Shown piece after piece: positions 2,091 through 10,781 of a stretch of 64,000 nt of DNA. The notes under the pieces are model-generated. The model did no database searches. It was not told the origin of the DNA and saw only the letters and a program-made list of their open reading frames with translations. Both the position numbers and the translations under genes were made by a program. The stretch's first letter is position 1. The number at the start of each line of letters is the position of its first letter. The stretch comes from Hoeflea phototrophica DFL-43 (GTDB lineage Bacteria; Pseudomonadota; Alphaproteobacteria; Rhizobiales; Rhizobiaceae). The stretch covers positions 3,669,853 through 3,733,852 of the forward strand of contig NZ_CM002917.1 in NCBI RefSeq assembly GCF_000154705.2. Direction: 5' to 3'.

Positions 2091-2104
2091 ACCCGTATCC
2101 GGGT
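2091..2104. terminator. Short hairpin between convergent genes
   Basis: ACCCG-TATC-CGGGT forms a 5-bp stem exactly between the kdgK stop and the stop of the opposing permease gene. There is no T-run on either side, so this is at best a weak bidirectional terminator, and the second arm touches the permease stop codon. Confidence 0.25.
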
Positions 2105-3015
2105 CAGGGCTTGTAGGGTTCACCAAGCGATGCCACGCCGTTCAGCTTGAGCAGCCGGCGGTTGGACGAGATGATCCCCAACACGATGATCGTCACCAGA
2201 TAGGGCAGGCTCGCAAGCAGCTGCGATGGCAGTTCCACACCCGTCGTCTGAGCGGCAAGCCCGGCAAGCGAGACGGCGCCGAAGAGACAGGCGCCCAGGA
2301 AGATCCGGCCTGTCAGCCAGGTCCCGAAGACCACAAGCGCGATCGCAATCCAGCCGCGTCCAGCAATCATGCCGTCAGCCCAGAGCGGGGTGTAGACCGT
2401 CGACGCATAGGCTCCGGCAAACCCTGCCATGGCACCGCCTAAAGCCACCGCGCACACCCTGATCAGGATGATCGGATAACCGATGGAGTGAGTGGCCTTG
2501 GGATTTTCGCCCGCGGCCCGCAGGATCAGGCCTGTCTTGGTGCGCGCGAACACAAACCAGACACCGAGGGTCGCCAGCAACGACAACCAGACGACAATGT
2601 CCTGGGTGAAGAGACCGCCCACAAGCGGCAGATCGGAGAGACCCGGGATTTCAATTTTCGGGATCCCGCGGATCGTCAGGCTTTCATAGGATTTGCCAAA
2701 CAGGGCCGAAAGCCCCTGCCCCAGGATCCCGATCGCCAGACCCGCCGCCACCTGATTGGCCTGCAGCCCGATGGCAACAAAGGCAAACAGCAGCGACAAC
2801 ATAGCGGCCGAGATCCCGGCTGCAATGAAACCGGCAAAATGGCCGCCGCCATTGTAAACCACGATAAAGCCAATCGCGGCGCCAAGCGCCATCATGCCTT
2901 CAACGCCGAGATTCAAAACACCGGTGCGCTCGGCCACAAGCTCGCCCAGCGCAGCCAGCAGAAACGGTGTGGCCGCCGCCAGCATCCCGGCGAGAACAAA
3001 CTCGATCGCGTTCAT
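2104..3015 (-). CDS. ABC transporter permease, BMP/nucleoside-type (BPD_transp_2)
   Basis: Inner-membrane channel subunit of an importer for purine- or nucleoside-like solutes, 303 aa with about eight to ten hydrophobic segments. It begins with AAATPFLLAALGELVAERTG and has the GVEGMMALGA segment and the cytoplasmic AAGENPKATHSIG loop, which is the coupling loop of this family. It overlaps the upstream permease by 4 nt and is the last gene of the operon. Together with the second permease, the double-domain ATPase and the BMP-type binding protein it makes a complete transporter. Substrate is inferred from family and neighbours only. Confidence 0.88.
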   Translation of the reverse strand: MNAIEFVLAGMLAAATPFLLAALGELVAERTGVLNLGVEGMMALGAAIGFIVVYNGGGHFAGFIAAGISAAMLSLLFAFVAIGLQANQVAAGLAIGILGQGLSALFGKSYESLTIRGIPKIEIPGLSDLPLVGGLFTQDIVVWLSLLATLGVWFVFARTKTGLILRAAGENPKATHSIGYPIILIRVCAVALGGAMAGFAGAYASTVYTPLWADGMIAGRGWIAIALVVFGTWLTGRIFLGACLFGAVSLAGLAAQTTGVELPSQLLASLPYLVTIIVLGIISSNRRLLKLNGVASLGEPYKP

Positions 3016-4112
3016 GCTTCACCTCGCTTGAGCTGATCAACCCATTCCAGCCGGTACCGGACAAAGGTGAAGGCGATCAGATAGCAAAGCAGGATGCTGC
3101 CTTGAAACACACGGACCGCCGCAATCGGCAGATCGGCAGAAACCATGGCATTGTCACCGCCAATATAGAGAACCGCCATGACGAATGAGGCGAACACGAT
3201 GCCGATGGGATGCAGGCCGCCGAGATAGGCAACGATGATACCGGCATATCCGTAGCCGGTCGAAATCGAGCGCTGCAACTGCCCGATTGGACCTGCAACT
3301 TCCGCAGCGCCAGCAAAACCGGCCGCCAGGCCACCGATCAGCAGTGACAGCCAGATCGTCCGGGATTCCGAAAACCCGGCATAGCGCGCGGCGGCCGGCG
3401 CCAGACCGCCCACCTCCAGCTTGTAGCCCTGAAAGCTCCGCTGCATGAAAATGAAAGCCAGCACGGAGAAGAACAGACCGAACAGCAGCGATATGTTGAC
3501 CCGCGTTCCCTCAAACAGGATCGGCAGCATCGCGTCATACTGGAACATCACGGTTTGCGGAAAATTGAACCCAGCCGGATCCTTCCAGGGGCCGAGCAGC
3601 AGATAGTTGAGCAATTGCGCCGCCACCAGGCTCAGCATCAGCGAGACCAGAATCTCATTGGCATTCAGACGTGCCCGCCAGAAGGCGGTGATCGACGCCC
3701 AAAGCGCCCCGCCCACAGCCCCCAGCAACAGCATCGCGGGCCATATCCAGACACCGGTGGCTTCTGGATACATCACCGGAATGGCTGACGCGAAAATGGC
3801 CCCGAGAATGAACTGCCCCTCTGCCCCGATGTTGAAGATCTTGGCACGAAAGCCGATGGCCAGCCCCTGTGCCACCAAAAGCAGGGGCCCCATTTTCAAC
3901 AACACCTCAGAGAAGCCGTACCAGGATAGAAACGGCTCAAGCAGCATTGCGTAGAAGACCCCGACAGGGTTCTTTCCCATAATCAGGTAAAGCGCCAGAT
4001 TGAGAATGGTTGCCGCCACAAGCGCCACCACCGGCGCCAGCGCCGTCATCATCAGCGAAGCCCGTTCACGGCGGACCAGACGAAAACCGAACATCGAAGC
4101 CAACCAACTCAT
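3012..4112 (-). CDS. ABC transporter permease, BMP/nucleoside-type, larger subunit
   Basis: Second membrane subunit of the importer, 366 aa. After a short cytoplasmic N-terminus it shows repeated hydrophobic helices. The GFRAKIFNIGAEGQFILGA block is diagnostic of the larger permease in BMP/Nup transporters, and a later YKLEVGGLAPAAARYAGFSE segment forms the ATPase-coupling loop. The start overlaps the ATPase gene by 4 nt and the stop overlaps the next permease by 4 nt, indicating one tightly coupled transcript. Confidence 0.88.
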   Translation of the reverse strand: MSWLASMFGFRLVRRERASLMMTALAPVVALVAATILNLALYLIMGKNPVGVFYAMLLEPFLSWYGFSEVLLKMGPLLLVAQGLAIGFRAKIFNIGAEGQFILGAIFASAIPVMYPEATGVWIWPAMLLLGAVGGALWASITAFWRARLNANEILVSLMLSLVAAQLLNYLLLGPWKDPAGFNFPQTVMFQYDAMLPILFEGTRVNISLLFGLFFSVLAFIFMQRSFQGYKLEVGGLAPAAARYAGFSESRTIWLSLLIGGLAAGFAGAAEVAGPIGQLQRSISTGYGYAGIIVAYLGGLHPIGIVFASFVMAVLYIGGDNAMVSADLPIAAVRVFQGSILLCYLIAFTFVRYRLEWVDQLKRGEA

Positions 4113-5632
4113 CCCGCAATCGCTTCCTTGCCGGCTTCAGCACCAATCATGAAGCGGCCGATGTCCTCGGGCCGCGTTTCGCGCTTGTTCAGCGAAGGGC
4201 TGAGCGACCCGGCATGCAGCACCTGGATCCGGTCGCAAAGCTCGAACAGCTCCTCGAGTTCTTCTGAAATCACCAGGATCGCGACACCTTCATTGCGAAG
4301 GGCAATCAGCTTCTGGCGGATGGCGGACGCGGCGCCGATATCCACGCCCCAAGTGGGCTGGGCGACGAACAGAAGCTTGGGCGCCAGCTTGATTTCGCGC
4401 CCGACAATGAATTTCTGCAGGTTTCCGCCCGACAGAGACCCGGCTTCGGCATCGGGCCCGGAGGTGCGAACATCAAAATCGTCGATGCAGCCTTGCGTGA
4501 AAGCCCTGGCCTTCGCCTTGTCGACAAGACCATAGCTGAGCAGACCGAGAGGATGAGCCGTCAGCAGGCTGTTGCGGACCAGCGGCAGTTCAGGCACCGC
4601 CCCGCGCCCAAGCCGCTCTTCCGGAACAAAGGCGAAGCCGAGGCTCCGGCGTTGCGCCGGCATCATTTGGCCGACCGGCTGCCCCATCATCTGGATCTGC
4701 TCGGCCTGCATTTCGGGCAACACCGTCTCACCGGAAATCAAGGCCGAGAGTTCGCTCTGACCATTGCCGGAAATCCCCGCGATTCCGAGGATTTCACCGG
4801 AACGAACCGAAAGCGTGATCTCGGACAGGGACACCTTGAACGGATCATCCGTCTGATGCGACAGACCAAAAAGTTCGAGCCGCGCCTCGCCCAGATCCAC
4901 CGGCTTGGCCGGCGCGGGCTCGGGCATGTCCCGGCCGATCATCATCCGCGCAAGATCATGGGCATCATGCTCGCGCGGATCAACATTTCCGGTCACCAGG
5001 CCACTGCGCAAGATGGTCGCGTGATCGCATACGGCCCGGATCTCCTCGAGCTTGTGGGAGATGAACAGGATCGACACGCCGCTGTCGCGCAGCTTCTTCA
5101 ATGTCTCAAACAGCTTGGTCACCGACTGCGGCGGCAGCACCGAGGTGGGCTCGTCCAGGATCAGCAGTTTGGGATTGGTCATCAGGCAGCGAATGATTTC
5201 GACACGCTGCCGCTCGCCGACCGAAAGCGCGTGAACATGCGCAAGCGGATCGACTTCCAGGCCGAACTCCCGGCCCAGCGTGGTGATGCGCTCAATCAGT
5301 TCGGCCTTCCGCCCGTCTATGACAAGCGCAATGTTTTCGGCAACGGTGAGTGTTTCCAGCAACGAGAAATGCTGGAACACCATGCCAATTCCGTAGCGCC
5401 GCGCCACCGCCGGCGAGGTCAGTTTGAGCGGCTCCCCTTCCCACAGCATCTCGCCCGTATCCGGCATCTCCACACCATAGATCAGCTTCATCAGCGTGGA
5501 TTTGCCCGCGCCGTTTTCGCCAAGAATGGCGTGAATGGATTGCGGCGCCACGTCCAGATCTATGCCCTGATTGGCATGGATCTGGCCGTAGCTCTTCGAA
5601 ACGCCACGAAGCGAAAGAAGGGGAGCCGTCAT
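4109..5632 (-). CDS. ABC transporter ATP-binding protein, two ABC domains
   Basis: Energises the importer, 507 aa with two nucleotide-binding domains in one chain. The first has Walker A GENGAGKST, signature LSVGERQRVEI and Walker B ILDEPTSVL. The second has a degenerate Walker A (GISGNGQSE), signature LSGGNLQKFIVGREI and the family's altered Walker B region FVAQPTWGVD. A degenerate second site is normal for sugar/nucleoside-type ABC proteins. It lies 4 nt after the binding-protein gene and overlaps the permease start. Confidence 0.9.
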   Translation of the reverse strand: MTAPLLSLRGVSKSYGQIHANQGIDLDVAPQSIHAILGENGAGKSTLMKLIYGVEMPDTGEMLWEGEPLKLTSPAVARRYGIGMVFQHFSLLETLTVAENIALVIDGRKAELIERITTLGREFGLEVDPLAHVHALSVGERQRVEIIRCLMTNPKLLILDEPTSVLPPQSVTKLFETLKKLRDSGVSILFISHKLEEIRAVCDHATILRSGLVTGNVDPREHDAHDLARMMIGRDMPEPAPAKPVDLGEARLELFGLSHQTDDPFKVSLSEITLSVRSGEILGIAGISGNGQSELSALISGETVLPEMQAEQIQMMGQPVGQMMPAQRRSLGFAFVPEERLGRGAVPELPLVRNSLLTAHPLGLLSYGLVDKAKARAFTQGCIDDFDVRTSGPDAEAGSLSGGNLQKFIVGREIKLAPKLLFVAQPTWGVDIGAASAIRQKLIALRNEGVAILVISEELEELFELCDRIQVLHAGSLSPSLNKRETRPEDIGRFMIGAEAGKEAIAG

Positions 5633-5636
5633 CAGC

Positions 5637-6734
5637 TCACTTCGGCAGCGGCGTGGTCACGCCCTTGACATGCCAGTCCATCGAGACGACCTCGGCCTCG
5701 CTCATCGTGACACCGTCTGCAACACCCTCGCTGCCATCGGCCTTCATGATCGGACCGGTGAAGGGCGAGAAGCTGCCATCGGCAATCTTGGCTTCGGTTT
5801 CCTTGATGGTGGCCATCATGTCGGCCGGGATATCCGGGCTCCAGTCGACAACCTCGACCACCTTGTCGGCAACACCGAGGAATGCGCTCTTGCCCTCGAA
5901 TGTGCCGGCAAGATGCGCATCCACCTGCGCCTTGAAATACGGACCCCAATCGGTCAGCACACAGCCCAGATAGGTCTTGGGCGCATAGGCCTTCATCGAG
6001 GAGTTCAGGTTGAAGCCGTAGACACCGGCTTCCTCGCAAGCCGAGATCACCGACGGCGTGTCCTGCGCGTTGGAGAAGATCACGTCGCAATCCTGTGCCA
6101 CCAGAGCCTTGGTGGCTTCCTGCGCCTTGGCCGGATCAAACCAGGAATTGAGCCAGACGACGGAGACCTCGATGTCCGGATTGACCGCCTGCGCACCAAG
6201 CGTGAAGGCATTGATCGAGGTGATCAGTTCGGGAATGGCAAAAGCGGACACCGAACCGAGCTTGCCGGTCTTGGAGACGGCTGCGGCAGCCATGCCCATC
6301 AGATAGGTGCCTTGGGAATACTGCGCGGCAAACGGCGAGAAATTCGGCGCGACCTTGAAGCCCGATGCATGCAGCACCGAGACCTTCGGATTGCGCCGCG
6401 CAATCTGCAGCGCGCCGTTCTGATAACCGAAGGAACCGGCGATCAGGAAGTTGTTTCCGTCCGCAACGGTCTTGTTCATGATCCGGTCGGCATCGGGACC
6501 TTCAAAGATGTTCTCGATGACCGTCAGCTTGACCGCATCACCATAGGCCTCGATGACCGGATCGAGACCGGCCTTCAAGGCATGCCCCCAACCCACATCG
6601 GCCACCGGCGACGGGATCACCAGTGAAATACCCAGCGGTTCGCTGGCAAGCGCAGCCTTGCCGCCAAATGCGGTTGCAAGGCCGGTCGCTGCGGCACCTT
6701 GCATGAGTGTCCGTCGTGTCAATTTGTGTGTCAT
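5637..6734 (-). CDS. BMP family ABC substrate-binding protein with Tat-type signal
   Basis: Periplasmic solute receptor of the importer, 365 aa. The N-terminus has a twin-arginine motif RRTLMQ followed by a hydrophobic stretch and an Ala-rich cleavage region (AALASEPLG), so Tat export is likely. The body fits the BMP fold: VIENIFEGPDADRIMNK, GSFGYQNGALQIA and FSNAQDTPSVISACEE. BMP proteins bind nucleosides, purines or related compounds. It is preceded by the amidohydrolase gene with a 20-nt gap, which suggests that the enzyme acts on what the transporter brings in. Confidence 0.88.
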   Translation of the reverse strand: MTHKLTRRTLMQGAAATGLATAFGGKAALASEPLGISLVIPSPVADVGWGHALKAGLDPVIEAYGDAVKLTVIENIFEGPDADRIMNKTVADGNNFLIAGSFGYQNGALQIARRNPKVSVLHASGFKVAPNFSPFAAQYSQGTYLMGMAAAAVSKTGKLGSVSAFAIPELITSINAFTLGAQAVNPDIEVSVVWLNSWFDPAKAQEATKALVAQDCDVIFSNAQDTPSVISACEEAGVYGFNLNSSMKAYAPKTYLGCVLTDWGPYFKAQVDAHLAGTFEGKSAFLGVADKVVEVVDWSPDIPADMMATIKETEAKIADGSFSPFTGPIMKADGSEGVADGVTMSEAEVVSMDWHVKGVTTPLPK

Positions 6735-6754: not shown

Positions 6755-8134
6755 TTAGAATTCCACGGTTGAAAGTGCGGCCTCGGCATCGGCAAACAGT
6801 TTTGCCTCATCAAGACCGGTAAACTCGCCTTTCGACCAGACGATGCGCCCGTTGATCATCGTCAGGTCGGTGGGCATGCCAATGCCGACCTTGGCCAAGA
6901 GGCTCAAAGGGTCGTGCCTTGTGCCGACATAATCCATGCGGCGGGTGTCGATGGCGAACAGATCTGCGGCCATACCCGGCGCCAGTCGCCCGATGTCGCT
7001 GCGCCCCAGCAGCGACGCACCACCGCTGGTCGCCTGGCGGAAAAATTCGGCCGGCTCCGGCACCTGATGCTCACGGGTCGAAGCCACCAGGCACTGCAGC
7101 ATGTAGGCCGAATGCACACAGTGCATCAGGTTGGAATTGTCATTGGAAGCCGCACCGTCGCATCCCAGGCCGACGCGCACGCCCAATGCCGACATCGCCG
7201 GAATGTCGGTGACTTCAGCACCGACGAGATAGACCGGTTCCGGGCAATGCGACACGCCGGTCCCGTCAGCTGCCATCTTGCTGAGCTCGTCATGGGTGAG
7301 TTCCCAGCAATGGGCGTAGAAGGCATCAGGCCCGGCAAAGCCCAGTTCGGCGCAGTAATCCACCGTGCGCATCCCGTGCCGCGCCTCGATCACCGGGCTT
7401 TCGCCCTCACCCACATGGGTGTGCATCAACACACCCCGGTCCCGCGCCAGCGCAACCGATTCAACGAATGTCTCCCGGTAGCAATTGACCGGCTGGCAGG
7501 GCGCAACAGCCACCTGACGCATGCTGAACTGCGAACCGTCATGATAGCTGTCGATCAGCCGGGCACAGTCGGCGATGAATTCATCGGTCGTCTCGAGCAT
7601 CTCGTCGGGGATCGTGGAGCCTTCCGATTTTGGCAGCGTGTTGCCGCCGCGCCCCGCATGAAACCGCATCCCCAGAAGCTCCGCCGCCTCGAACTGCCGG
7701 TCGATGATCCGTTTGCCAGCATGCCTGGGAAAGCAGTACTGGTGATCAAACGCCGTCGTGCAACCATGCTTGATCAGCTCCGACATGGCGGTCACCGACG
7801 AGTGATAGAAGCAATCCTCGTTCAGCCGCGAGAAGACCGGATAGATCCGGTCCAGCCATTCGATCACGGAGAGTTTTGTCCAGTCCAGATCCGCCCGGTT
7901 GCGCACGAAGGTCTGGAAGAAATGGTGATGCGTGTTCACCAGCCCCGGATAGACAAACCAGCCATCAGCCTTGACCGTGGCGATGCCATCCATTGAATGG
8001 GTCGCATCAAGACCGGCCCCGGCCGCAACAACCGCCGGCCCGACGATGAGAAGGTCAATATTGCGATGGACCTTAGGCCCTGCGCCCTCCTCCAGAATCA
8101 CGGCTTCGCAGTTTTTCAGAAGATAGCCGCTCAT
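6755..8134 (-). CDS. Amidohydrolase, 8-oxoguanine deaminase / AtzB-TrzN-like
   Basis: Probable cytoplasmic metal-dependent deaminase or hydrolase of an N-heterocycle, 459 aa. The metal ligands of the amidohydrolase superfamily are visible: VNTHHHFFQTF (HxH), MHTHVGEGE, FYAHCWELTHDE, and the late Asp in GLGCDGAASNDNSN. The whole pattern is closest to the 8-oxoguanine deaminase/hydroxyatrazine hydrolase branch. An ATG at 8143 is also possible, but GGAG is only 1 nt from it and 10 nt from ATG 8134, so I prefer 8134, which lies just after the GST stop. Exact substrate cannot be read from sequence. Confidence 0.82.
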   Translation of the reverse strand: MSGYLLKNCEAVILEEGAGPKVHRNIDLLIVGPAVVAAGAGLDATHSMDGIATVKADGWFVYPGLVNTHHHFFQTFVRNRADLDWTKLSVIEWLDRIYPVFSRLNEDCFYHSSVTAMSELIKHGCTTAFDHQYCFPRHAGKRIIDRQFEAAELLGMRFHAGRGGNTLPKSEGSTIPDEMLETTDEFIADCARLIDSYHDGSQFSMRQVAVAPCQPVNCYRETFVESVALARDRGVLMHTHVGEGESPVIEARHGMRTVDYCAELGFAGPDAFYAHCWELTHDELSKMAADGTGVSHCPEPVYLVGAEVTDIPAMSALGVRVGLGCDGAASNDNSNLMHCVHSAYMLQCLVASTREHQVPEPAEFFRQATSGGASLLGRSDIGRLAPGMAADLFAIDTRRMDYVGTRHDPLSLLAKVGIGMPTDLTMINGRIVWSKGEFTGLDEAKLFADAEAALSTVEF

Positions 8135-8135
8135 C

Positions 8136-8795
8136 TCAGCCATGCTCCATTTCGGCGGAGGGTTCCGGCTTGAGTTCATGCAGACGGTGAATGCCGGGCA
8201 TCTCGATAAATCCGTCAAGCGCCCTGAGCGCGCGCATCCACTCGCGAATGTTTGGATAGGGATCGAGCGAGACACTGCCGTCGGGTGCCAGGGCCACATA
8301 GGGAAAGCAGGCAATGTCGGCGACCGTCGGCCGGTCGGAGACAAGAAAGCGCATGCCGCGCAGATTCTGCTCGAACAGCGCCGCCTCCAACTCCCGAAGG
8401 GCCAGGATGCCGGCCTTTTGCAAGGCTCCCAGATCGCCCGGCCTGAGCAGCATTTCACACAGCCTCGCGCCGCCAAGCGAGGCGGTCAGCCGCGACGAGA
8501 AAGCCAGCCACTGCGTGATCCGCGCGTTTGCCGCGGGCGATCCGTCACCCATCCACTCCGGCGCGTGTCTGCCGGCGATGTAGACCAGGATCGCCGACGA
8601 GTCCGTGAGGATCAGCTCGCCATCCTCAAGGATCGGAATGGAGCCCGCCGGATTGAGCGCCATCAGCTCCGGCCCGCGATGTTCCTCGCCGGGATGGAAA
8701 TCCACAGATCTCAGACTGATTTCGGTGCCCGTCAGCGCGGCCAGCAGGCGGACTTTGTAGCAGCTGGGTGAGAGGATGTAATCGTAAAGCTTCAT
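8136..8795 (-). CDS. Glutathione S-transferase-like protein
   Basis: A 219-aa GST-fold protein. The N-terminal thioredoxin-like half has SPSCYKVRLLAAL and the cis-Pro GSIPILEDGELILTDSSAIL glutathione-site segment. The C-terminal half is all-helical (FLVSDRPTVADIACFPY). The start overlaps the oxygenase stop by 4 nt. In the NdmCDE methylxanthine demethylase a GST-like subunit, NdmE, is thought to bridge a Rieske-less oxygenase and a separate Rieske carrier. The same gene types are adjacent here, so a structural role is as likely as conjugation. That parallel is inference. Confidence 0.85.
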   Translation of the reverse strand: MKLYDYILSPSCYKVRLLAALTGTEISLRSVDFHPGEEHRGPELMALNPAGSIPILEDGELILTDSSAILVYIAGRHAPEWMGDGSPAANARITQWLAFSSRLTASLGGARLCEMLLRPGDLGALQKAGILALRELEAALFEQNLRGMRFLVSDRPTVADIACFPYVALAPDGSVSLDPYPNIREWMRALRALDGFIEMPGIHRLHELKPEPSAEMEHG

Positions 8796-9637
8796 TGCGC
8801 CACCAACTGAGCACCATAGGTGTAGTCGTGACGCTTGAGCCAGCGCCGGTAGGCAACCGATGTCATGTCCGCGCGCGTCGGGATCTCCTTGCCCGGATCA
8901 AGCGGCAACCGCGCCGGGATCTGGTTTTCCAGGATCGAACGGTCCTGGACAAAGATCATCTGCTGAAAATGGATGAGATCCGTCATCGATGTTTCGTCGT
9001 CATAAAGCGCCATCCACGGCCAAACGTCACACAGATCTTCGGAGATCGGCTGGACAAACAGGCAGATCACGTCCCATTCGCCGGGACGGGCCGGACAGGT
9101 CTTGTAAAGAACCGAGCATGTGGGCGCTGGCACCCGGTACATGTACTCCGTGGTGATCCCGCCCTCGGCCGATTTTGCCGCCTGCGGCTGGTAGAACGAC
9201 ACCTTGGTCGCCCAGACCTCATCTTCCTTTTCCCGGATCTCGACCTCGTATTTCGCCACTTCCGTGTGCGGCTCGGCGCCCAGAATATCGGTATGCACGA
9301 AGGGGAAATGGGCGATATCGAGAAAGTTCTCGACCGCCCGCAAGGGCGAACACCGAACCCGCACGACGCCGACATCAACCAGCCGACGGCCTGGTTGATC
9401 GGCTTCCGACAATGCGAACAGATCCTCTGGCGGCGTCCCCAGCGATGTCCAGACATGGCCGAAGCGTTCCAGCACCGGCAGGCTGCGCCCCTCGGACCGC
9501 GTCACACAGGCTAGACCGTCAACAGCTTTGGAGACATGGATGGCAGTTCCCATCAGCACGGTGTCTTTGCCCACCTCGTCGAGCTGGCTGACAAGGCCAA
9601 CCGGATACCATTGATCGATCATCGCGCTGGCACTCAT
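8792..9637 (-). CDS. Mononuclear-iron oxygenase subunit lacking its own Rieske cluster (NdmC-like)
   Basis: Catalytic subunit of a Rieske-type oxygenase, 281 aa. The C-terminal domain keeps the iron site: ENFLDIAHFPFVH gives bridging Asp107 with His110 and His115, and VQDRSILENQ supplies Asp232. The N-terminus keeps the framework of a Rieske domain (MIDQWYPVG..., VWTSLGTPP) but has no CPH or CxYH cluster ligands, so it cannot carry a 2Fe-2S centre. The start at 9637 forms ATGA with the stop of the upstream Rieske gene, with AGGAG 8 nt before it. The upstream 232-aa protein has the missing cluster. The architecture matches NdmC of methylxanthine N-demethylation. Confidence 0.82.
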   Translation of the reverse strand: MSASAMIDQWYPVGLVSQLDEVGKDTVLMGTAIHVSKAVDGLACVTRSEGRSLPVLERFGHVWTSLGTPPEDLFALSEADQPGRRLVDVGVVRVRCSPLRAVENFLDIAHFPFVHTDILGAEPHTEVAKYEVEIREKEDEVWATKVSFYQPQAAKSAEGGITTEYMYRVPAPTCSVLYKTCPARPGEWDVICLFVQPISEDLCDVWPWMALYDDETSMTDLIHFQQMIFVQDRSILENQIPARLPLDPGKEIPTRADMTSVAYRRWLKRHDYTYGAQLVAQ

Positions 9638-10332
9638 GAACATGGCTCCTTGTCCGCCAGCGCCTCGGCCGCCCGCCGCAGTGCTTCGGCAGATCTCGAA
9701 ACCGCAATACGCTCCGCCAGGGTGGCGTCCGGCCCGATCAGAATGTGGACCAGCGTCGCGCCGTCTCCCTGATCGACACAAAGCACTCTCGCGGCAATCC
9801 CGCCAAGCATGCAGCCAAGCGCCAGCCCCTCTTCCCGGGCCTCATCCACTGAAGACCTGATCTGGTCAGGCGATGCCATCACGGTGATCGAGCGCAGCGG
9901 CTCATATCCGGCGATGTGAGGCGGCGGCGTGTCCGCCGCATCGCGGCTCACCCAGATGACGCCCCCCACCTCCGCAGCGGTCTGGGTTTCCACCTTGATC
10001 GCCGTTGGCGGGGTCAGGTCGGGATGCGCCGGAATGCGCACACACTGTCCCGACAGGCCATAGCTCCAGCCATGATAGATGCATGAGAGCGCTTCACCAC
10101 GCACAAAGCCATGCGACAAACGCATGCCGCGATGCGGGCACCGGTCGGCGCAGGCGGAGAGCTTTCCACTCGCACTGCGCCACAGCGCCGCTGCGCCCTG
10201 GACAGTCCTGATCGGCGCAACACTTGCTGGCCGCACATCATTGGAAAGGGCAACTGGCACCCACTGGCAATCTGGATTGGGGAAGAACACGGAAAACCCG
10301 ACTCGCACTTGTCTCAAAAAGCAGCGCACCAT
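9634..10332 (-). CDS. Stand-alone Rieske 2Fe-2S protein, partner of the adjacent oxygenase
   Basis: Electron-transfer protein, about 232 aa. It has a full Rieske site: CPH (Cys65, His67) in CADRCPHRGMRL and CxxH (Cys84, His87) in CIYHGWSYG, 17 residues apart as in ring-hydroxylating oxygenases. The domain starts FFPNPDCQWVPVALSNDVRP. After it comes an unassigned tail of about 90 residues (IRSSVDEAREEGLALGC...) with no mononuclear iron ligands and no reductase motifs. The start is uncertain: ATG 10332 is used, with GTG 10308 and GTG 10290 as alternatives. It is first in the operon. The electron donor (a reductase) is not in the window. Confidence 0.8.
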   Translation of the reverse strand: MVRCFLRQVRVGFSVFFPNPDCQWVPVALSNDVRPASVAPIRTVQGAAALWRSASGKLSACADRCPHRGMRLSHGFVRGEALSCIYHGWSYGLSGQCVRIPAHPDLTPPTAIKVETQTAAEVGGVIWVSRDAADTPPPHIAGYEPLRSITVMASPDQIRSSVDEAREEGLALGCMLGGIAARVLCVDQGDGATLVHILIGPDATLAERIAVSRSAEALRRAAEALADKEPCS

Positions 10333-10508: not shown

Positions 10509-10781
10509 ATGGCGCAAGCCTCAAATGCCCGGGAACAGATGATCTTGCGCGGCGAGTTCAGCGCCGGAAGCTTCGTGCCATGGATTGAGGCCTACGCACA
10601 CAAACTGGGCCTGACCGGGATCATTCAAAAGGCAGATTCGGGCCGCATCGAGCTGCAACTGGAAGGCCCGCCGGAACTGGTCGACGCCATGGAAGTGGGC
10701 TGCCTTCTGGGGCCAATCGACATCTGGGTGGAAACAATCGAGCGCACGCCAGATACGGAACCGCCGCAACATCGCGTCTGA
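10509..10781 (+). CDS. Acylphosphatase-fold protein lacking the catalytic arginine
   Basis: Small cytoplasmic protein of 90 aa, the usual acylphosphatase length. The alignment to the family is visible in LRGEFSAGSFVPWIEAYAHKL, GLTGIIQKADSGRIELQLEG and the late GPIDIWVETIE strand. The catalytic loop normally reads GxVQGVxFR; here it reads GEFSAGSFVP, so the Arg is lost, and the Asn of the GxVxN strand is replaced by Gln. It is therefore unlikely to be an active acylphosphatase. GGAG lies 10 nt before ATG 10509. It is divergent from the Rieske operon and has no partner on its strand. Function unknown. Confidence 0.6.
   Translation: MAQASNAREQMILRGEFSAGSFVPWIEAYAHKLGLTGIIQKADSGRIELQLEGPPELVDAMEVGCLLGPIDIWVETIERTPDTEPPQHRV

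Follow-up and report, generated by a model that had tools for sequence, protein, structure and literature searches.

A putative heteromeric Rieske N-demethylase encoded with an NdmH-like hydrolase in Hoeflea phototrophica DFL-43

In Hoeflea phototrophica DFL-43, the two halves of a Rieske oxygenase are encoded by separate, overlapping genes. They likely form one heteromeric Rieske N-demethylase, in which two complementary pseudo-enzymes would be joined by a GST-like scaffold and for which a methylated guanine is the best substrate guess. We give this reading a probability of roughly 0.6; its substrate, complex, and electron donor are what we infer. The gene set suggests an operon for demethylating guanines, for example those freed as RNA decays. 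The window analyzed is a stretch of 64,000 nucleotides (contig NZ_CM002917.1, positions 3,669,853 to 3,733,852), and the host genome searched is a single 4.47 Mb contig.

Gene organization and conservation

The operon consists of eight contiguous minus-strand genes. The Rieske subunit (9634..10290, 218 aa from GTG 10290, [2Fe-2S] ligands C51, H53, C70, and H73) is followed by an NdmC-like oxygenase subunit (8792..9637, 281 aa; VanA_C, 78 bits), a GST-like homologue of NdmE (8136..8795, 219 aa), and an amidohydrolase of putative NdmH (N2,N2-dimethylguanine hydrolase) type (6755..8143), whose start is ATG 8143 or 8134. The other four genes encode a BMP-type ABC importer, made up of a BMP/PnrA-type substrate-binding protein (5637..6734; Pfam Bmp, 141.5 bits), an ATPase (4109..5632; ABC_tran, 152.5 bits), permease 1 (3012..4112; BPD_transp_2, 131.3 bits), and permease 2 (2104..3015; BPD_transp_2, 97.1 bits). 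Neither an NdmA- or NdmB-type gene nor a reductase gene is present in the window operon; as the initial annotation had noted, the 218-aa Rieske frame contains no reductase domain. Four-base ATGA overlaps connect the Rieske and oxygenase genes (9634-9637) and the oxygenase and GST genes (8792-8795), which bears out the same annotation's view of one oxygenase split over two overlapping genes with a GST-like gene coupled next. Its 232-aa Rieske protein was correct in the ligands (Cys65, His67, Cys84, and His87 when numbered from ATG 10332, equal to 51/53/70/73 from GTG 10290) but not in the length. ATG 10332 adds 14 residues relative to GTG 10290 (VFFPNPDCQW...), and the GTG is the better start: it is the exact start of one relative (P0126), and many other relatives begin at most about one residue away. 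On the plus strand at 431-2082, a GntR/FCD regulator and a PfkB-type kinase face the operon end. The best model for the kinase is 2-dehydro-3-deoxygluconokinase, under its cut-off, and the genes beyond the same regulator and kinase at another locus (L150) resemble, by eye, a TRAP transporter.

The operon is widespread in rhizobia and their relatives, and the unfused arrangement is common beyond this genome. R. johnstonii (leguminosarum) 3841 carries its copy on pRL10. We compared the best 80 of 490 confirmed related loci, so the sample leans to near relatives. The order Rieske, oxygenase, GST, and amidohydrolase was present in all 80, and the full series from the acylphosphatase-like gene (see below) through these four to the binding protein, the ATPase, and the two permeases was kept in one order and strand in 76. 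Among these best 80 loci, the binding protein was found in 79, and the ATPase, permease 1, and permease 2 in 80 each; the four-base overlap was kept between Rieske and oxygenase genes in 77 and between oxygenase and GST genes in 78. The cluster and iron ligands were intact in 80/80, with the same oxygenase string, ENDHHD. In a second set of 35 loci, which includes four fused clusters and contains some genes twice through overlapping stretches, the ligands were intact in 34 of 35 Rieske proteins (one was not found) and in 35 of 35 oxygenases. The median dN/dS, calculated for non-independent pairs of equal length and 85-97% identity only, was 0.07 for the oxygenase (369 pairs), 0.15 for the Rieske part (120 pairs), and 0.47 for the tail of the Rieske subunit (117 pairs). 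The window oxygenase is 95% identical to one of Hoeflea sp. (P0001). The distribution of the oxygenase family is patchy: at E 1e-20, the window's own genome was the only one with a match among 18 of its genus, and matches turned up in 73 of 297 genomes at family level and in 10 of 385 at class level. These counts mix fused and unfused types and include, in the class, two genomes (G334 and G335) with full-length oxygenases by length.

Divergent from the operon in the window is a plus-strand gene for a 90-aa acylphosphatase-like protein (10509..10781; Pfam 31.2 bits, over the 22.5 cut-off), the only such match in the host genome. Acylphosphatases use an Arg and an Asn for catalysis, and PDB alignments indicate that both are replaced in the window protein. 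The neighbor was found in 77 of the best 80 of 490 loci, where it lies on the operon strand, and none of these 77 relatives kept the catalytic Arg or Asn. Both residues were also lost in 18/18 further loci (one genome counted twice). At E 1e-6, no acylphosphatase-like gene was detected near the fused clusters L084, L086, L087, and L088, nor near a few split clusters; the dead gene is beside most split Rieske clusters looked at. Its product may be a further structural subunit.

Complementary lesions in the two subunits

The oxygenase subunit retains the iron ligands His110, His115, and Asp232, together with Glu103, Asn104, and the bridging Asp107. Alignment to NdmC and to NdmA/B revealed that it lacks the cluster-binding stretch and that the identical stretch is absent from NdmC, consistent with the earlier description of a 281-aa protein with an iron triad and no cluster ligands. 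Its first ~65 residues are what is left of a Rieske domain, minus this stretch; the remnant aligns to both flanks of the NdmD Rieske domain with 97.5% probability, and none of 100 shuffles was as good.

The Rieske subunit appears to have the opposite lesion. Its residues ~130-214, the tail that had been left unassigned at first, are predicted from modeled structure to be a shrunken catalytic-type domain of a Rieske oxygenase without the iron ligands. In the predicted structure, 206-214 of the subunit's 218 residues align with complete Rieske oxygenases; a new domain, which we considered for the tail, is ruled out by this predicted fold. When the tail alone was compared by profile with the catalytic domain of the oxygenase, no signal emerged (65/100 shuffles as good), and the tail assignment is therefore carried by the fold match. 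The tail looks to correspond to the NdmD region between the Rieske and reductase parts: profile probabilities were only 21% and 66%, and 0/100 shuffles matched either. That NdmD middle region in turn matched the oxygenase catalytic domain at 67% with the P. putida reference (0/100 shuffles) and at 26% with the S. meliloti reference (1/100). The middle-region match relies on predicted secondary structure and on pLDDT, which is 88-96 over residues 131-240 of the NdmD-type model. A structure search with this model was uninformative on the N-terminal part, its listing being filled by reductase-domain matches.

Judging from alignments and models, each subunit looks like a whole oxygenase minus the active site of the other. 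If true, this would be a clean case of one enzyme split into two pseudo-enzymes, with the active site rebuilt across their interface. Each gene on its own lacks half of a complete active site, as would be expected of decayed pieces of one broken oxygenase. This reading has next to no credibility and is refuted by conservation, since the pair is kept in order in 80/80 loci (best 80 of 490) with intact ligands and low dN/dS. The initial annotation had pointed to a second full-length oxygenase as a sign of decay, and the host genome has no second NdmC-type copy, the one match being the window's own. Three Rieske-domain matches occur in that genome, including the window protein; the second is an oxygenase with BenA-like best models, below cut-off, which adjoins its own reductase, and the third, a short one, is taken to be of cytochrome bc1 type. 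The Rieske protein might instead act as a mobile ferredoxin, binding only transiently to an oxygenase that is independent of it, given that it is a separate polypeptide and has weak matches among classical Rieske ferredoxins, CarAc for example. We consider this distinctly unlikely. The alignment with whole Rieske oxygenases over nearly the full protein fits a subunit, and the oxygenase, being without a cluster itself, needs one in a neighboring subunit. The accessible text on NdmCDE also describes a tightly bound complex, of unsolved structure (PMC13237722). The small unfused subunits of the proposed N-demethylase may make the structure of an NdmCDE complex easier to solve.

The NdmH-type hydrolase and the proposed substrate

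A 2026 paper, in its accessible part, defines N2,N2-dimethylguanine hydrolases and lists the residues of poNdmH from Pleomorphomonas oryzae, which converts N2,N2-dimethylguanine to xanthine and dimethylamine (PMC13054789). All 13 listed residues (Q74, W85, W93, Y98, Y133, N165, C213, Q214, N217, E243, H275, P300, and D326) are present in the window amidohydrolase at a constant offset of +3, versus 2/13 at the next best offset. The Rhizobium leguminosarum and Qingshengfaniella amidohydrolases also have 13/13, and the same 13-letter string occurs in 80/80 loci (best 80 of 490). The 8-oxoguanine deaminase model (NCBIfam PRK08203) scored 368 bits, below its 532 cut-off. By its residue pattern, the window amidohydrolase is of NdmH type. 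The same operon is present in locus L182 (genome G973), where the Rieske protein is 100% identical to P0164 of P. oryzae and the amidohydrolase matches the published poNdmH numbering at offset 0; at E 1e-10, this genome has only one other amidohydrolase match, 28% identical. Because the numbering fits exactly and the genome has only that one distant match, an operon of this type in P. oryzae very likely encodes the characterized poNdmH. Its discoverers state in the accessible text that the physiological context of NdmH is under investigation, and the main text in its accessible form, where the hydrolase is treated alone, does not contain 'Rieske', 'operon', 'genome neighborhood', 'ABC transporter', 'tRNA', or '7-methyl' (PMC13054789). 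Here, in contrast, the hydrolase sits in an operon with an oxygenase and an importer, which gives a testable answer to the question of its context.

We also inspected a wider sample of 19 split clusters in 18 genomes, outside the 80 loci, with bit-score thresholds. All 19 had the GST gene, 11 a BMP gene, and two an NdmD-type reductase. An NdmH-, guanine deaminase-, or 8-oxoguanine deaminase-type gene was present in eight and a xanthine dehydrogenase (XDH)-type gene in three, with either kind in nine; the other ten had no gene of these four types, some stretches ending at contig ends. Guanine deaminase exceeded its cut-off in the split clusters L184, L191, and L145, as did 8-oxoguanine deaminase in L188. 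In L184 and L191, guanine deaminase ends a one-strand run of Rieske, oxygenase, GST, and importer genes, and the L145 one is found further downstream, sharing a strand with the oxygenase and importer genes. Two polypeptides of 1047 aa (L135:3033-6176 and L188:13289-16432), each composed of the FAD-type (pucC-like) and molybdopterin (pucD-like) parts of XDH, adjoin split-oxygenase clusters. The host genome encodes guanine deaminase (562.8 bits) and XDH (1372 bits) elsewhere, so the operon need not perform those steps.

The activity of poNdmH, the guanine or 8-oxoguanine deaminase genes that accompany the split genes in certain other lineages, and the homology to an N7-demethylase together point to methylated guanines, perhaps N7-methylated ones, rather than caffeine as the substrate. 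The N7 position is the weakest link of the proposal, drawn from homology to NdmCDE at 43% identity only. NdmCDE performs N7-demethylation of 7-methylxanthine and needs its GST for activity. If its N7 preference is kept, 2,2,7-trimethylguanine would be converted to N2,N2-dimethylguanine for NdmH. In the alternative order, NdmH would act first on an N7-methylated N2,N2-dimethylguanine, with 7-methylxanthine, on which NdmCDE is known to act, as the presumed product. In nature, 2,2,7-trimethylguanine can come from trimethylguanosine caps. A broader and tentative extension, which we regard as somewhat doubtful, is that the alphaproteobacterial operon is a dedicated RNA-turnover route for methylguanines, in which the unfused N-demethylase takes the N7-methyl of 7-methylguanine-type bases and, with NdmH, of the trimethylguanosine-cap base, and from which the fused NdmCDE of caffeine degraders was recruited.

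Two other substrates have to be weighed against methylated guanines. The closest characterized homologues are NdmC, NdmE, and the NdmD N-terminus, and the NdmC group forms one clade within a family of unfused forms in the oxygenase tree; on this basis the system could be an N7-demethylase of methylxanthines for caffeine or theobromine breakdown, with a merely detached reductase. We judge this unlikely, as the window operon lacks genes of NdmA or NdmB type and the partner hydrolase is apparently of the type that serves N2-dimethylated guanine, not methylxanthines. The NdmCDE precedent proposed in the initial annotation is thus supported for architecture and ancestry by the sequence identities given below, while the operon context shifts the substrate from methylxanthines to methylated guanines. 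Xanthine itself is the product of both NdmH and guanine deaminase, and an oxygenase that hydroxylates it to urate would complete the route; HpxD, whose record name is molybdenum cofactor-independent xanthine hydroxylase subunit, is among the weak homologues in plasmid records. However, HpxD shares only 29-30% identity over 79% of the query, compared with 43% for NdmC, the host has a full XDH, and three other split clusters adjoin an XDH-type gene of their own, which makes xanthine hydroxylation very unlikely.

For the preferred N-demethylase, the BMP transporter would import methylated purines, and the operon would convert them to xanthine for the housekeeping xanthine dehydrogenase. Electrons from NAD(P)H would reach the Rieske subunit by way of a reductase whose gene lies outside the operon and would then cross the subunit interface, via Asp107, to the Fe(II) of the oxygenase. 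The oxygenase would hydroxylate the N-methyl group, which would leave as formaldehyde, and the GST-like protein would hold the subunits together, as proposed for NdmE.

Electron supply and relation to known systems

With the NdmD reductase as the query, one of the best 80 of 490 loci had a match at 1e-3 and none exceeded 100 bits. The host genome contains four NAD_binding_1 matches: a PaaE-like protein just under cut-off, NqrF over cut-off, a ferredoxin-NADP reductase-like protein under cut-off, and, adjoining the BenA-like oxygenase, a PDR-type reductase. This PDR-type protein shares 40% identity with the NdmD reductase and is the best candidate electron donor. Stand-alone NdmD-type reductases occur in two split clusters. 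In L190, the GST stop codon is also where the reductase gene begins, and in L185 that gene is beside a Rieske gene with an open frame of 228 aa. L185 also brings together an NdmA-like oxygenase (29% to NdmA), this reductase, and the split Rieske/oxygenase/GST trio.

Among characterized proteins, the oxygenase is closest to NdmC (43% over 277 aa, with the same deletion), the GST-like protein to NdmE (40% over 205 aa), and the Rieske domain to the NdmD N-terminus (39% over 108 aa); the likeness to NdmCDE is supported for architecture and ancestry. Our NdmCDE reference was the cluster of Pseudomonas putida plasmid pTmex-577K (L084), whose proteins match the NdmA and NdmB PDB chains at full length and also the NdmD ferredoxin chain. 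Fused and unfused forms belong to one family. The best trees, built from chosen loci rather than every fetched locus and with long outgroup branches, nest the fused among the unfused forms; neither a single clade of all unfused rows (p-AU 0.194) nor one of all fused rows (p-AU 0.31) was rejected, so the trees accommodate either direction of change.

Some clusters have more than one oxygenase gene. On pSymA of Sinorhizobium meliloti (L088:8980-10791), two NdmC-type oxygenase genes stand in tandem before one fused NdmD, and several genomes of the family seem to have similar tandems, where one Rieske protein may serve two oxygenases. Two pairs of stretches (L135/L136 of G403 and L143/L144 of G613) carry two oppositely directed oxygenase genes ~15-16 kb apart with a single Rieske-GST-acylphosphatase set between them, again hinting that one Rieske subunit feeds two oxygenases.

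The NdmCDE-like kind is already known: a review, in its accessible part, says that Sinorhizobium and Mesorhizobium were seen in 2013 to have ndmCDE homologues (PMC4408171). NdmCDE contains three copies of each subunit, and NdmC alone is insoluble, as stated in the accessible text of another paper (PMC10380055). In the accessible open-licence literature that names NdmCDE, we found no description of an unfused Rieske subunit or a guanine substrate. As far as that literature shows, three things are new: the unfused architecture of complementary lesions, the identity proposed for the tail and for the middle region of NdmD, and the connection to NdmH and to guanine deaminases. The arrangement had been called new at first, which holds relative to NdmD but not for this genome in particular, as relatives commonly share it.

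Among single-chain VanA_C Rieske oxygenases, SxtT/GxtA and related proteins are the best PDB sequence matches of both halves, and the SxtT/GxtA type is the best Foldseek match of the Rieske subunit; unlike the window pair, they carry both centers on one chain and act in a different pathway. HpxD is a related oxygenase with a purine substrate by annotation, at 29-30% identity in the matches seen. As in NdmCDE, the window oxygenase keeps the iron triad without a Rieske cluster site, the cluster is on a second polypeptide whose gene adjoins that of the oxygenase, and the third gene encodes a GST-like NdmE homologue. NdmD-type proteins have, after the Rieske domain, a middle region that matches the window Rieske tail, but in NdmD the Rieske part is fused to a flavin and ferredoxin reductase, whereas the window Rieske subunit is not. 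Unlike the NdmCDE clusters, the window operon has no NdmA/NdmB and instead combines the unfused pair with genes for a BMP importer, a hydrolase of NdmH type, and an acylphosphatase-like protein that has lost its catalytic residues.
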